Source: a virus
Reading direction: 5' to 3' (one strand)
Virus record (IMG/VR): IMGVR_UViG_3300050821_003964
Location: 1 to 23,949 of that record
DNA: 23,949 bases
The translations under genes and the position numbers were made by a program. Positions within the stretch are counted from its first letter, which is position 1. Every line of letters begins with the position of its first letter. Shown here in pieces: positions 4,693 to 8,639 of the stretch. The notes beneath the pieces are model-generated. The model was not told the origin of the DNA. It made no database searches and was given only the letters and a program-made list of their open reading frames with translations.

Positions 4693-5220
4693 TTAAGCGG
4701 CCTGCTTAACCTTCGGATCGAGTCCCGCTTCGCGGGCTAGGAGCACAAGCTTGCTAGCAAACGCGCGGGCCTCGGGGGAGACTTTCGGCGTCTTGCCATC
4801 TTCGTGCATGTCTGTATTGGTCGCGTTGCGGTTCAGGTTCCGCAAAATCGACTCTACCGTGACCGATACAGGGTCCTTCTCATTCGTCAGGTCGGCGAAC
4901 GAGGTTTCCATCGCTTCCGCAATCTTGAAGTCACCGTCCGCGCGGTCCTTCTTCAATTCAGCGGTCCACTCGCCCTTGGCGAAGGTGAAAATCAGCTTGT
5001 TGCTGCTGAAGTTCTTGAACCAAAACGCGAGCGCCTTGACGCGGGTGCCACGGGGCAATCCGTTCAAGAGCACAAGAGCTTGGGTGTAGTCCCCATGCAT
5101 GCGAGTGTGATCCAAGATGCTGCACGCGATCTGATGCACTTCCGCTTCGACGCGGCCAGCGATCCGAACAACGCGAGCAACCTTCGAGGCAACCTGCGAT
5201 TGAGTGTAAAGGGTAAACAT
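4693..5220 (-). CDS. conserved phage-type hypothetical protein, 175 aa
   Basis: The start ATG at 5218-5220 has AAGGAG seven bases upstream, which is why the longer frame to 5274 is rejected. The N-terminal 100 residues (RIAGRVEAEVHQIACSILDH, then HGDYTQALVLLNGLPRG and VKALAFWFKNF) match the general pattern of a small-protein family I recall from several podovirus-like phages. That family has a helix, a 'HGD...LL..LP.G.R..AL..WF' segment and a Lys-rich strand. The family's function is not known to me. The C-terminal part is charged (NRNATNTDMHEDGKTPKV). Its position next to the repeat cluster suggests an early gene. The family resemblance is from memory and needs a search. Confidence 0.75.
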   Translation of the reverse strand: MFTLYTQSQVASKVARVVRIAGRVEAEVHQIACSILDHTRMHGDYTQALVLLNGLPRGTRVKALAFWFKNFSSNKLIFTFAKGEWTAELKKDRADGDFKIAEAMETSFADLTNEKDPVSVTVESILRNLNRNATNTDMHEDGKTPKVSPEARAFASKLVLLAREAGLDPKVKQAA

Positions 5221-5333
5221 AGTCAGTCTCCTTGAGGGTGTTAGAACGCAATCCAAGCAGCACCCTGTCGCCAAGGTGCTGACGCATTACGCTTTGATTG
5301 ACCGAGTACCAATCAATCGCGGGGCCGGAATCG

Positions 5334-5884: not shown

Positions 5885-5896
5885 GGGGGGGGGGGG
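5885..5896. repeat. 12-G homopolymer tract
   Basis: Twelve consecutive G on the + strand lie in the non-coding divergent region, about 37 bases upstream of the candidate rightward -35 box. Such a tract is prone to slippage, so its length may vary between genomes or reflect a sequencing error. Confidence 0.9.
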
Positions 5897-5932
5897 TGCC
5901 CCGTCCGGCTCTGCTTTCGCGTATAGTTTTGC

Positions 5933-6049: not shown

Positions 6050-6196
6050 ATGGGCGCATTCAAAAAACTGGTGAAGAAGCTCGAAGGCAAAGGACTCCCC
6101 GCGAAAGAGGCGGGCGGGATCGCCTACAAGCAGGGCGTGAAGAAGTTCGGCAAAGATGGCATGGCCCGCAAAGCCGCAGCCGGAAAGCGTAAGTGA
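6050..6196 (+). CDS. Lys-rich small phage protein, 48 aa
   Basis: This gene starts at ATG 6050 with AAGGTGA four bases upstream; longer in-frame extensions upstream lack a ribosome site and cross the promoter region. The product (MGAFKKLVKKLEGKG, then AKEAGGIAYKQGVKKFGKDG, ending in AAAGKRK) is very basic. I recall short phage proteins with a similar 'G.pAKeA..I....yGk.gM..kAA.gK' pattern near structural genes. They are usually annotated only as hypothetical, or as small virion or DNA-binding proteins. Its stop overlaps the next GTG start (GTGA). Function inferred only from charge. Confidence 0.7.
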   Translation: MGAFKKLVKKLEGKGLPAKEAGGIAYKQGVKKFGKDGMARKAAAGKRK

Positions 6197-6471
6197 AAGA
6201 CCCGATCATTGAGCAGAAGGCACCCCTAGATTTTTTCCTGCACGCAAAACCTTGCGTCGGAAAAATTCCTGAAGAAGCAACGCTGCTCCTTGGTCTCATG
6301 AAGTTGACAGCAGCCTGCTATATGTACGAGGGTGTCCGTATGTGGAGCATCGATAACCCAGCCACTTTGAAGTACGTGCGCATCGACGCTGAGACCTTGG
6401 GTCAAGACGAGGCTGTGTGGCGCGAAGTGATGGGCCTCCTTGTGGATTTCGGCAACGGAGCATTGAAATGA
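6193..6471 (+). CDS. small protein, putative member of a Trp-helix paralogue array, 92 aa
   Basis: GTG start coupled to the preceding stop. The second half has the layout shared with the following genes: a helix (PEEATLLLGLMKLTA, 26-40), a strand pair (GVRMWSI...LKYVRI), then a C-terminal helix with a Trp (EAVWREVMGLLVDFG, W76). No known family is recognised. The ATGA overlap with the next gene indicates tight co-translation. The paralogy with downstream genes is my reading of pattern, not a computed alignment. The copy is one of the most diverged. Confidence 0.65.
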   Translation: MKDPIIEQKAPLDFFLHAKPCVGKIPEEATLLLGLMKLTAACYMYEGVRMWSIDNPATLKYVRIDAETLGQDEAVWREVMGLLVDFGNGALK

Positions 6472-6668
6472 CTTTGATTCCAGAACTTGCACCCGGAGTG
6501 CGAGAGCTTATTCTCGTCGCGGGCTTCGAGGTTGCGCCGTTTAGCTCGACCTGGTTGGTCGGCAAACCAGGCTTGAAAAAATATCACATCCCTTCGAAGT
6601 GGACCACGATGGAGGAGTGGCAGAGTGCCCTCACTGCAATCACAGAAACGTATGAGCGCGGCGGTTGA
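6468..6668 (+). CDS. small protein, putative Trp-helix paralogue, 66 aa
   Basis: ATGA junction with the upstream gene, and GGAG seven bases before the ATG. The whole protein is essentially one copy of the array domain: helix GVRELILVAGF (10-20), a strand region with Trp (STWLVGK) and a Lys/Tyr strand (LKKYHI), then MEEWQSALTAI (W51). It is the shortest member and so may define the minimal domain. No catalytic residues, Cys pair or membrane segment is present. A small protein-binding fold is a guess. Function unknown. Confidence 0.65.
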   Translation: MTLIPELAPGVRELILVAGFEVAPFSSTWLVGKPGLKKYHIPSKWTTMEEWQSALTAITETYERGG

Positions 6669-6930
6669 GCACTCGCCTGAGCCTGGTGCCAACGTGTTCC
6701 GTGGAACCTTCACGGAGTACGTTCAGGCGGCGGCGGACTTGCTCGACCTCGACTTGAGCTACGACGTGCACGCGCAAACGCTGTACGTGATGAAGAAAAA
6801 TTCCCGCGCGAAAATCCACCGGTTCACGATGACGCTGCAAGCCTTTGCACAGATGACCGACCAGATGTGGAACGCGATCCTGATGGAAGTGAAAAATGCG
6901 AAGAAACCTGACGATGAACTTCCTGTGTAG
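6652..6930 (+). CDS. small protein, putative Trp-helix paralogue, 92 aa
   Basis: Starts at ATG 6652, overlapping the preceding gene by 17 bases. A GTG at 6625 behind GGAGGAG is an alternative that would add nine residues. Layout: helix TEYVQAAADLLDLDLS (21-36), strands QTLYVMKKNS and KIHRFTMTL, and C-terminal helix DQMWNAILMEVKN (W73). The tail is charged and Pro-rich. It fits the repeated domain pattern of its neighbours, though with a longer strand region. No family recognised. Confidence 0.65.
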   Translation: MSAAVEHSPEPGANVFRGTFTEYVQAAADLLDLDLSYDVHAQTLYVMKKNSRAKIHRFTMTLQAFAQMTDQMWNAILMEVKNAKKPDDELPV

Positions 6931-7144
6931 CGACCTCCCGGATGCGGTCCCGGAGTTGCTGGTGCTGCTGGGGTTGTACTCGCAGTGGGACCCGATCTTG
7001 CGCGAGCATAAAATCTGGCAGCGGGACTACGAGCCGCCGCGCTACCCGTGGACCTCGCGGCATTTCAAAGGTGGCACGCAACAGGAATGGTCTGTATTCT
7101 TAGGCAAGATCACCAGCGCTGGCTGGAAGGAAACAACCATATGA
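6896..7144 (+). CDS. small protein, putative Trp-helix paralogue, 82 aa
   Basis: ATG at 6896 with a GGAAGTGA-like site upstream; an ATG six codons later is an alternative. It overlaps the previous gene by 35 bases and the next by four. Layout: helix PDAVPELLVLLGL (15-27), then SQWDPILREHKIW, a Trp/Pro/Tyr-rich stretch (YEPPRYPWTSRHF), and QQEWSVFLGKI (W65). Trp is unusually frequent, with five in 82 residues. The helix, Trp-strand and Trp-helix order parallels the genes at 6468, 7141 and 7542. Function unknown. Confidence 0.65.
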   Translation: MRRNLTMNFLCSDLPDAVPELLVLLGLYSQWDPILREHKIWQRDYEPPRYPWTSRHFKGGTQQEWSVFLGKITSAGWKETTI

Positions 7145-7545
7145 GCAGGCTTTGTCCGCTGAACCCAGACATCGACTACGGCCCAGTGCGCGACGCGGTG
7201 CGCCGCATGACCAGTTGGGAGCAGGCGAACAAGGACCGCATCGTCCAAAAAATTTCTGTGTTTGAGATTCCCTATGAGCCGCCGCCCGTCGATGACGAGA
7301 CCACGGTCACGTTCTTCGAGATGATGGACCCCGACGTGCGTGCCGTCCTGTGCCTGCTCGACGCGCGCCTGGACTGGCACCAGTCCCTCCGGGCATGGAA
7401 GGTTCAGTTGACGGTGCGGGGACAGCGCACGTTCGTTTATTTTGAAGGCGGACAAGCCAGTGCCGATGACTGGAACACCTTCCTTGGATACACACTCACC
7501 CACGGGCACGCGCCCGCACAACCATTGGATAAATTTCCGTCATGA
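7141..7545 (+). CDS. putative Trp-helix paralogue with N-terminal extension, 134 aa
   Basis: ATGA overlap with the upstream gene. The first 60 residues (NPDIDYGPVRDAVRRM..., then YEPPPVDDETT) have no clear counterpart. Residues 62-120 follow the array pattern: MDPDVRAVLCLLDARLDW, strand AWKVQLTVRG, strand RTFVYFEGG, then ADDWNTFLGY (W111). This is the clearest copy together with 7542. The extension suggests the domain has been fused to, or has grown, another segment. No known family recognised. Confidence 0.7.
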   Translation: MSRLCPLNPDIDYGPVRDAVRRMTSWEQANKDRIVQKISVFEIPYEPPPVDDETTVTFFEMMDPDVRAVLCLLDARLDWHQSLRAWKVQLTVRGQRTFVYFEGGQASADDWNTFLGYTLTHGHAPAQPLDKFPS

Positions 7546-7853
7546 GAAAAATCGCAGTTGGAAAGAAACAGACGCTTGCTGAAGTGATGGCGCAGAACAA
7601 CGATGTGGGCAGCCAGGTCAACTACGACCGGCCCGTGATCGAGGAGGCGACGCCATCGAGCGCCGGGACCGCCGAGCCCGCCGTGCCGGACGCGTGCACC
7701 GCGTTGTTGATCATGAGCGGGGCGACGGCGCGATGGAACATCAACCACTTCCTGATCATATCCAAGAGCGGTAAGCGGTCGGGTGTCGGAGCCACGGCGA
7801 GTTTCGAAGAGTGGCGGGATGTCCTGAACAACCTGGCTGGAGGCCGCATGTGA
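7542..7853 (+). CDS. putative Trp-helix paralogue, 103 aa
   Basis: ATGA overlap with the upstream gene. It has a basic N-terminus (MRKIAVGKKQ), an Ala/Pro/Glu linker, then the domain: PDACTALLIMSG (49-60), TARWNINHFLIISKSG, GVGATAS, FEEWRDVLNNL (W91). The W-x-x-x-L helix at the C-terminus matches ADDWNTFL of the preceding gene and MEEWQSAL of 6468. Its stop closes this first run of paralogues; a spacer with regulatory features follows. Function unknown. Confidence 0.7.
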   Translation: MRKIAVGKKQTLAEVMAQNNDVGSQVNYDRPVIEEATPSSAGTAEPAVPDACTALLIMSGATARWNINHFLIISKSGKRSGVGATASFEEWRDVLNNLAGGRM

Positions 7854-7862
7854 CATAATATT

Positions 7863-7880
7863 TCGGTTGTGCAAAACCGA
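7863..7880. promoter_or_regulatory. dyad TCGGTT-GTGCAA-AACCGA, possible operator
   Basis: A perfect 6-bp inverted repeat overlaps the candidate -35 box of the repressor gene. Ribbon-helix-helix proteins usually bind short dyads near their own promoters, so it is a plausible autoregulatory site. A simple RNA hairpin is the alternative. Confidence 0.45.
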
Positions 7881-7894
7881 GATCAGGTCATAAT
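7867..7894 (+). promoter_or_regulatory. candidate promoter directly upstream of the repressor gene
   Basis: TTGTGC (7867-7872) and CATAAT (7889-7894) are 16 bases apart. The -10 box is a five-of-six match, and the -35 box is poor (three of six). The expected transcription start falls at or next to the ATG at 7901, so the transcript may be leaderless. The -10 box is part of the recurrent CATAATGTAC motif also found at 11689. Confidence 0.45.
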
Positions 7895-7900
7895 GTACAT

Positions 7901-8101
7901 ATGGCGAGAACGAAAGTCGGCGACCGCGAGAGGATCAATTTTTACTTCGACAGGCAAGTCCTGGAGGCGTTGAAGAAGATCGCGGCCTTGAAGAACACAT
8001 CCTACTCAGAGTTGATTCGCATCGGCATGAGAGAGTACGTCGTGCGCGAGGGCCAGAAGGCCATCGACTCCGGGCAACTCATAAAGGACATTCGCAAATG
8101 A
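7901..8101 (+). CDS. ribbon-helix-helix DNA-binding protein (CopG/Arc type), 66 aa
   Basis: Layout of the family: a short strand (ERINFYFDRQV, 10-20), helix A (LEALKKIAALKN), a turn with Ser-Tyr-Ser, and helix B (ELIRIGMREYVV, 37-48). The C-terminal tail is charged. Such proteins dimerise through the strand, which inserts into the major groove, and usually repress nearby promoters. It starts 47 bases after the previous gene and overlaps the next by four. No good ribosome site precedes the ATG; the promoter at 7867-7894 would start the RNA at or beside the start codon. A likely regulator of this gene block; its target is inferred. Confidence 0.85.
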   Translation: MARTKVGDRERINFYFDRQVLEALKKIAALKNTSYSELIRIGMREYVVREGQKAIDSGQLIKDIRK

Positions 8102-8328
8102 AACAAATCTGCCACCACGAGAGTGAAGAGAATCCTCCGAAGACCTACTTCGGTTTGTTCCGGTTCAAGAAGATGGGCTACGGTGAGCGCTTGCAGTTCC
8201 CGACCTTCTCGATGATCCACACTCACCGAGCGCGCCCACACAAGGGCCGCATCGACTACGGCGTGGCGGTGTTGGTGTTCGGAGTGATGGTGAGCATCAC
8301 GCCGTTCACCGGAAGTGAGCAGACATGA
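8098..8328 (+). CDS. hypothetical protein, 76 aa
   Basis: ATGA overlap with the repressor gene and with the following gene. The protein is rich in His, Lys and aromatic residues (KQICHHESEENPPK, FGLFRFKKMGYGERLQFP) and has a hydrophobic stretch at about 54-70 (YGVAVLVFGVMVSITPF). That stretch could be a membrane strand or a core beta-hairpin; it is short for a transmembrane helix. It lacks the Trp-helix end of the array proteins. No family recognised. Confidence 0.6.
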   Translation: MKQICHHESEENPPKTYFGLFRFKKMGYGERLQFPTFSMIHTHRARPHKGRIDYGVAVLVFGVMVSITPFTGSEQT

Positions 8329-8639
8329 GATTCGATGGTGGACGCGGCCAAGCATTGCAGAAGGTGGGCTTCTCGTTCGACTTGGACAAGGCGAGCTACA
8401 AGGGTCCGAAGAACATCGCCCTCGCGGCGCGCGACCCGGTGATGCCGCCGCAGGACCCGACGATCCTGGCGATGGCGGAGAAAGCGCTCTGTGTCGTGGG
8501 CCTCGGTGTGAACTGCTACGTCGTGAAGAACGTCTACGAGATGGAAATGAATGTGGAGTACGGAGCGCCGCTTGAAGTGTGGCAGGCCGTGTTCGATCAA
8601 CTGCTGAAACAAGCGATGGAATATGAGCCAACCTACTGA
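8325..8639 (+). CDS. putative Trp-helix paralogue, 104 aa
   Basis: ATGA overlap at the start and one-base overlap (TGATG) with the next gene. The N-terminal 40 residues are Gly/Lys/Pro-rich and unlike the neighbours. The second half follows the array pattern: DPTILAMAEKALCVVGLG (44-61), strands NCYVVKNV and MEMNVEYG, and LEVWQAVFDQLLKQA (W86). It lies beyond the repressor gene, so the array is interrupted by two other genes. Function unknown. Confidence 0.65.
   Translation: MRFDGGRGQALQKVGFSFDLDKASYKGPKNIALAARDPVMPPQDPTILAMAEKALCVVGLGVNCYVVKNVYEMEMNVEYGAPLEVWQAVFDQLLKQAMEYEPTY

Follow-up and report, generated by a model that had tools for sequence, protein, structure and literature searches.

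The gene array

We analyzed a 23,949-base virus record (IMG/VR IMGVR_UViG_3300050821_003964, positions 1–23,949; this whole stretch is called the window) that carries an array of seven small genes, which an earlier note had described from the letters as diverged copies of one domain. All seven open reading frames (ORFs) lie on the plus strand where that note had placed them, and they are named here g1 (6193–6471), g2 (6468–6668), g3 (6652–6930), g4 (6914–7144), g5 (7141–7545), g6 (7542–7853), and g7 (8325–8639). For g4, the ATG at 6914 is favored over the start at 6896 given previously, while g1 begins with GTG and may be shorter. g5 has an N-terminal extension, and the domain of g6 spans approximately residues 48–100. 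g6 lies directly 5′ of a gene for a ribbon-helix-helix (RHH) protein, and g7 lies 3′ of it, heading the packaging genes. These two are treated as core copies of the family and g1–g5 as accessory copies, g2 being g6-like. Downstream of the array are the genes of the terminase (10278), a portal-like protein, the major head protein, and structural proteins.

The genes are organized in two runs. The first (6050–7853) has successive overlaps of 4, 4, 17, 17, 4, and 4 nt. After a 47-nt gap, the second run starts with the RHH gene at 7901 and continues with genes at 8098, 8325, and 8639, overlapping by 4, 4, and 1 nt. A codon-model gene caller, trained on codons of the phage itself and blind to the finding, selected the same genes, with a shorter start for g1 and, in one run, for g3. 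Substitutions between close orthologs were enriched at codon position 3, a sign of protein-level constraint. The relatives used for comparison are uncultured IMG/VR contigs (L-numbered), and the terminases of the closest ones are up to about 90% identical to that of the window. Protein-level orthologs were found in other phages for all array genes except g2, the best matches of which were members of the g6 group. Orthologs of g3 occur in L006, L012, and L029, and those of g4 in L003, L004, L005, and L029. g6 has about 20 orthologs at the same position in relatives, and g7 has orthologs in more than 20 loci. The seven are real, mostly overlapping genes.

Relationship of the copies and predicted fold

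Iterative hidden Markov model (HMM) searches linked g2 with g6 (g2 profile to g6, E = 1.5e-12) and g6 with g7 (E = 3e-10 for the g6 profile to g7 and 5.5e-5 in the opposite direction). In direct searches, g2 and g6 landed on the same genes of relatives. The profile comparison proposed in the earlier note was run for all pairs with hhalign, using profiles built separately from each gene's own orthologs. The 98 controls consisted of two neighboring genes and 96 clusters built from other ORFs of the same contigs; many of these clusters are antisense ORFs, so that they serve as controls of composition and length, and not all of them are real proteins. Twelve of the 21 pairs exceeded all 98 controls in probability on both sides. 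Against the other six copies, the g6 family scored 21.7 (g1), 45.3, 22.0, 17.9, 26.5, and 29.8, as compared with 15.1 for the best control. The hhalign probabilities were 95.6% for g2–g6, 60% for g6–g7, 30.7% for g5–g6, and 13.3% for g3–g6; g4 was connected to g3 (69.9%) and g2 (30%) above all controls. The g3–g4 link was threshold-dependent in the iterative search and was lost under a stricter setting; it is retained on the hhalign probability and the tree.

A pooled family profile yielded 90 matches among the ORFs upstream of the terminase, about 80 of them additional ones from this region in relatives; 0 of 1,126 reversed decoys and 1 of 1,178 antisense ORFs matched. The lone antisense match also appeared in a whole-record search (E = 5.5e-8) and probably represents a genuine member oriented leftward. 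Because the seven genes themselves contributed to the pooled profile, their scores against it were not taken as evidence.

AlphaFold models cover two of the seven copies. The g6 model, calculated with the family alignment, has helices at residues 50–59 and 88–98 and strands at 62–66, 69–73, and 79–83, with a pLDDT of about 95 in the domain. The g5 model, based on five orthologous sequences only, has helices at 64–72 and 108–121 and strands at 76–80, 85–92, and 95–102 (pLDDT mostly ~67–78). Separate alignments yielded the same α-β-β-β-α order in the two models, with three strands where the earlier note had one or two. The Trp that it had recognized in the C-terminal helix corresponds to a column that is Trp in 90% of the members, where the last helix begins. 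Core columns are hydrophobic in 92–100% of the members, whereas variation is free at most other columns, and the family alignment shows no set of conserved polar or catalytic residues. Most domains are acidic (median pI 5.5), and the two columns before the conserved Trp are 61–62% Asp/Glu. The models describe a compact α-β-β-β-α domain of 50–65 residues, the hydrophobic core of which includes the Trp that opens the last helix.

Convergence or common composition among seven unrelated small proteins would be compatible with the low identity to the g6 protein (11–21% across the six other copies), and also with g1 and g5, for which no BLAST-level similarity or direct sequence-level match to other copies was seen. 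The membership of g1 and g5 is suggested by the profile comparison, the tree and, for g5, the predicted model. The independent profiles that exceeded the 98 controls, the decoy counts, and the element order common to g5 and g6 contradict convergence, which we reject as an explanation that is close to refuted. The HMM searches, hhalign controls, decoys, and AlphaFold element order thus uphold the relationship that the earlier note had only inferred, and the seven genes are very likely homologous, with a predicted common fold.

In total, some 70 different proteins from roughly 30 related phages belong to the family. One member lies on the opposite strand, apart from the array (L052:174–473, minus strand). 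In four proteins of 240–320 residues with Gln/Pro-rich parts (L030:2074–3018, L034:2898–3824, L041:2972–3946, and L018:1259–1975), the domain is apparently internal, and by eye the L041:2972 protein may contain it twice. Runs of small ORFs that appear domain-like by eye remained below the profile threshold in L031 (3225–3446 and 3443–3688), L044 (2120–2783 and 3697–3945), and L045 (3914–4452), and because of these the family is probably larger than counted.

Copy content in related phages and neighboring genes

The tree was calculated from 71 columns, and many of its forks are unresolved. A branch with 95/91 support splits g1, g3, g4, and g5 from g2, g6, and g7. The copies g1, g4, g5, and g7 each cluster with copies of other phages with bootstrap values of 96–99; g1 groups with its ortholog L002:2618 (27% identity) at 98/88. 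g3 clusters with other phages' copies at 97–99 with a weaker second support, and g2 and g6 are poorly placed. The grouping of copies across phages, together with the low identity to g6, indicates that the duplications are older than the divergence of these phages and that the array represents a set that was inherited and reshuffled. The repeated duplication described in the earlier note therefore holds for the seven repeats, but not as a local or recent event. Recent local tandem duplication was rejected, as g1, g3, g4, g5, and g7 group with the copies of other phages.

Fourteen longer records carry 0–5 copies as compared with seven in the window, the most seen, although this difference should not be pressed, since contigs are often cut and sub-threshold domain-like ORFs exist. 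L032 is essentially the same phage as the window and was excluded from the counts. This variation in number and content supports the likeness to diversifying accessory arrays seen in the earlier note, which had suggested comparing copy number among related phages. Shared accessory copies keep the order of the window: g1, a g2-like copy, and g6 in L002; g3, g5, and g6 in L006 and L012; g3, g4, and g6 in L029; and g4, g5, and g6 in L003. In most close relatives, a g6-type copy precedes the RHH gene and a g7-type copy follows it. In L028 (6182), L042 (1738), L044 (6742), and L045 (6679), a g7-like member is found directly before the terminase gene and not after the RHH gene; this copy has therefore moved.

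By terminase, the nearest named phages are Rhizobium phage RHph_TM3_14A (43% identity) and Pseudomonas phage Rollin (39%). Neither shows an array member, which is weak evidence at such a distance. A collection scan with the g6 protein alone recovered only the near-identical contig L032, and a genome scan with the terminase recovered no relative.

The RHH protein (7901–8101, plus strand) is a conserved neighbor outside the array family. It matches Pfam RHH_1 with an E value of 4.7e-4, at the cut-off, and is present in 23 related loci. In the 47-nt gap before its gene (7854–7900), there is a stem-loop (7863–7880) and a TATAAT-like box, which ends ~7 nt before the RHH start codon. A similarly placed box occurs in many relatives, including L004, L008, L012, L016, and L029. 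Its position suggests that the RHH transcript is leaderless and that g7 belongs to a second transcription unit, so that g7 likely lies beyond a transcription-unit boundary. A standard sigma-70 scan found no site in the window, and the promoter reading is based on the comparison of relatives. The earlier note had placed the array beside a repressor gene. The RHH gene does adjoin it, and the genes at 7901 and 8098 are not members; however, the RHH protein is only a putative repressor, and its gene, often with its own promoter-like box, is likewise found in relatives for which few copies or none were detected (e.g., L031). The RHH gene and the array are therefore not an obligate pair. Between the RHH gene and g7, g8 (8098–8328, plus strand) encodes a basic 76-residue protein with no assigned function, which is outside the array family and belongs to its own family of nine rows, unlinked to that of the array.

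In some relatives, tail-fiber or S74-peptidase genes are located upstream of the array, which places it at the junction of the tail and packaging genes. Farther upstream in the window itself, the genes point leftward. One of these (4693–5229, minus strand) is conserved in relatives and matches phrog_1448, a family of unknown function (E = 8e-15). No Rfam family was found in the window. A G run (5885–5897) in the non-coding stretch 5′ of the array is a possible weak spot of sequencing or assembly. Immediately 5′ of g1, the gene at 6050–6196 encodes a basic, Lys-rich 48-residue protein, which is much better conserved than the array (94% identity over 33 residues in L031) and is also present in L002, L018, and L019.

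Fold comparisons and possible functions

Searches of the array genes against Pfam, PHROGs, PADLOC (which holds defense genes and not inhibitors), PDB sequences, and annotated phages gave nothing above noise. A GDPD_2 match to g1 (E = 0.0035, below its cut-off) was treated as chance. A literature search, which did not reach most subscription papers, found no described array of this kind. The protein family is previously undescribed and unnamed, while the type of accessory locus is already known. With the g6 model, Foldseek matched two small uncharacterized phage proteins, A0A6J5P3C4 and A0A1V0DYB4 (Dinoroseobacter phage vB_DshS-R5C), with a probability of 1.00, TM by target of 0.61–0.65, and E values of 0.02–0.07, although the identity was low (17–22%). 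The g5 model gave nothing useful.

Among solved domains of this size, HicA ranked best. E. coli HicA (6hpb) was second in the list for g6, with the highest probability in that list (0.82), TM by target of 0.54, and rmsd of 3.0; the E value of 0.27 is not significant. Thermus TTHA1913 (1whz) was tenth, and a phage 'HicA-like toxin' was among the matches in the viral list. The α-β-β-β-α order is that of the double-stranded RNA-binding domain (dsRBD) and the HicA fold (PMC10865869, PMC3969222), and HicB antitoxins may carry RHH domains (PMC10865869). On this basis, the copies might be derived from a toxin–antitoxin system, acting as HicA-like toxins for which the RHH protein or g8 would be the antitoxin. 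The residues speak against this relationship. HicA toxicity requires Gly22 and His24 (PMC3969222), whereas the array domains have no Gly-Ser-His motif and His makes up ≤4–10% in columns 35–37, the β1–β2 turn. HicA is strongly positive, whereas the array domains are acidic. PF07927 matched none of 67 members and none of 14 related records, yet it matched 7 of 14 control genomes. The array phages also differ in carrying several copies each and no HicB: the genes adjoining the array gave no HicB-like profile match, and the RHH protein has no RNase-H-like part matching a family. Active HicA toxins were rejected because of the missing PF07927 match, the absent catalytic His, and the acidic character. 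For the same reasons, the likeness to HicA is one of topology only, and a toxin–antitoxin origin of the array is improbable.

The shared element order would also suit nucleic-acid-binding regulators, in which a dsRBD-like domain binds RNA or DNA and the RHH protein encoded next to it may take part. dsRBD structures were listed for the g5 model at very low probability. dsRBDs carry lysines at the start of helix 2, where the array family has its 61–62% Asp/Glu, and the low median pI disfavors nucleic acid binding as well. We consider this role unlikely.

The acidic character has a counterpart in AcrIIA4, a small acidic domain of similar element order that inhibits a defense nuclease (PMC5832863). 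Like the array domain, it combines a helix, three antiparallel strands, and a helix with negative patches (PMC5832863), but it has an extra third helix, and the 50 listed Foldseek matches do not include it; no kinship is claimed. Loci of the acr-aca type likewise place small, overlapping orphans next to the gene of a small DNA-binding protein, with content varying between relatives. They differ in that the array orphans are mutually homologous and include no known Acr, that RHH replaces the usual HTH of Aca, and that the RHH gene apparently has its own promoter.

Sites next to tail-fiber genes are a usual place for phage accessory genes. This adjacency in some relatives, the preserved core with variable other columns, the lack of a catalytic set, the acidic domains, and the differing subsets lead us to favor, tentatively and as somewhat less than an even chance, a set of small anti-host factors that bind proteins and are diversifying. 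The domain would be a small non-enzymatic binding scaffold, in which the exposed positions diverge and the core is kept. Its copies may bind different host proteins, either defense or takeover targets, and the array would represent the phage's repertoire of anti-host factors. g6 and g7 would be the core copies; the remaining ones would form an accessory set descended from old paralog lineages, with each phage retaining or losing them independently. In a more specific version, which is possible but doubtful, the array would be a combinatorial anti-defense repertoire on one ancient scaffold: each paralog would neutralize a different host defense protein, phages of a little-known clade would each keep a different subset, and some members would be fused into longer proteins.

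Accessory genes of phages are mostly orphans, which rules out comparisons among them. In this case, as many as seven adjoining orphans and the other proteins of the family reduce to one domain with a predicted fold, so that modeling, searches, and experiments can treat them as a single family. Should each copy prove to have a host target of its own, the phages would offer a natural series on how a small scaffold gains new binding partners, as well as a route to unknown defense or takeover targets.

Three observations weigh against anti-host factors. No array member resembles a known anti-defense protein. Some members reside within longer proteins with Gln/Pro-rich tails (L030:2074 and L034:2898). 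Two copies are near-universal in the group beside the packaging genes, which fits a structural or packaging role too. Such a role is the strongest competing explanation, particularly for g7, although on the whole it is rather unlikely: the copies would be virion or morphogenesis components, or assembly or packaging accessories, specialized for different contacts. It is consistent with g7 overlapping the next gene and running into the packaging genes, the conserved positions of g6 and g7 in most relatives, the member directly before the terminase in the four loci listed above, and the tail-fiber genes upstream in some relatives. Five of the seven copies are patchily distributed, and some relatives have one or no detected copy, which fits this role poorly. 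The array proteins have also diverged very fast, with 13–50% identity where the terminase retains 69–91%, another point against virion components.

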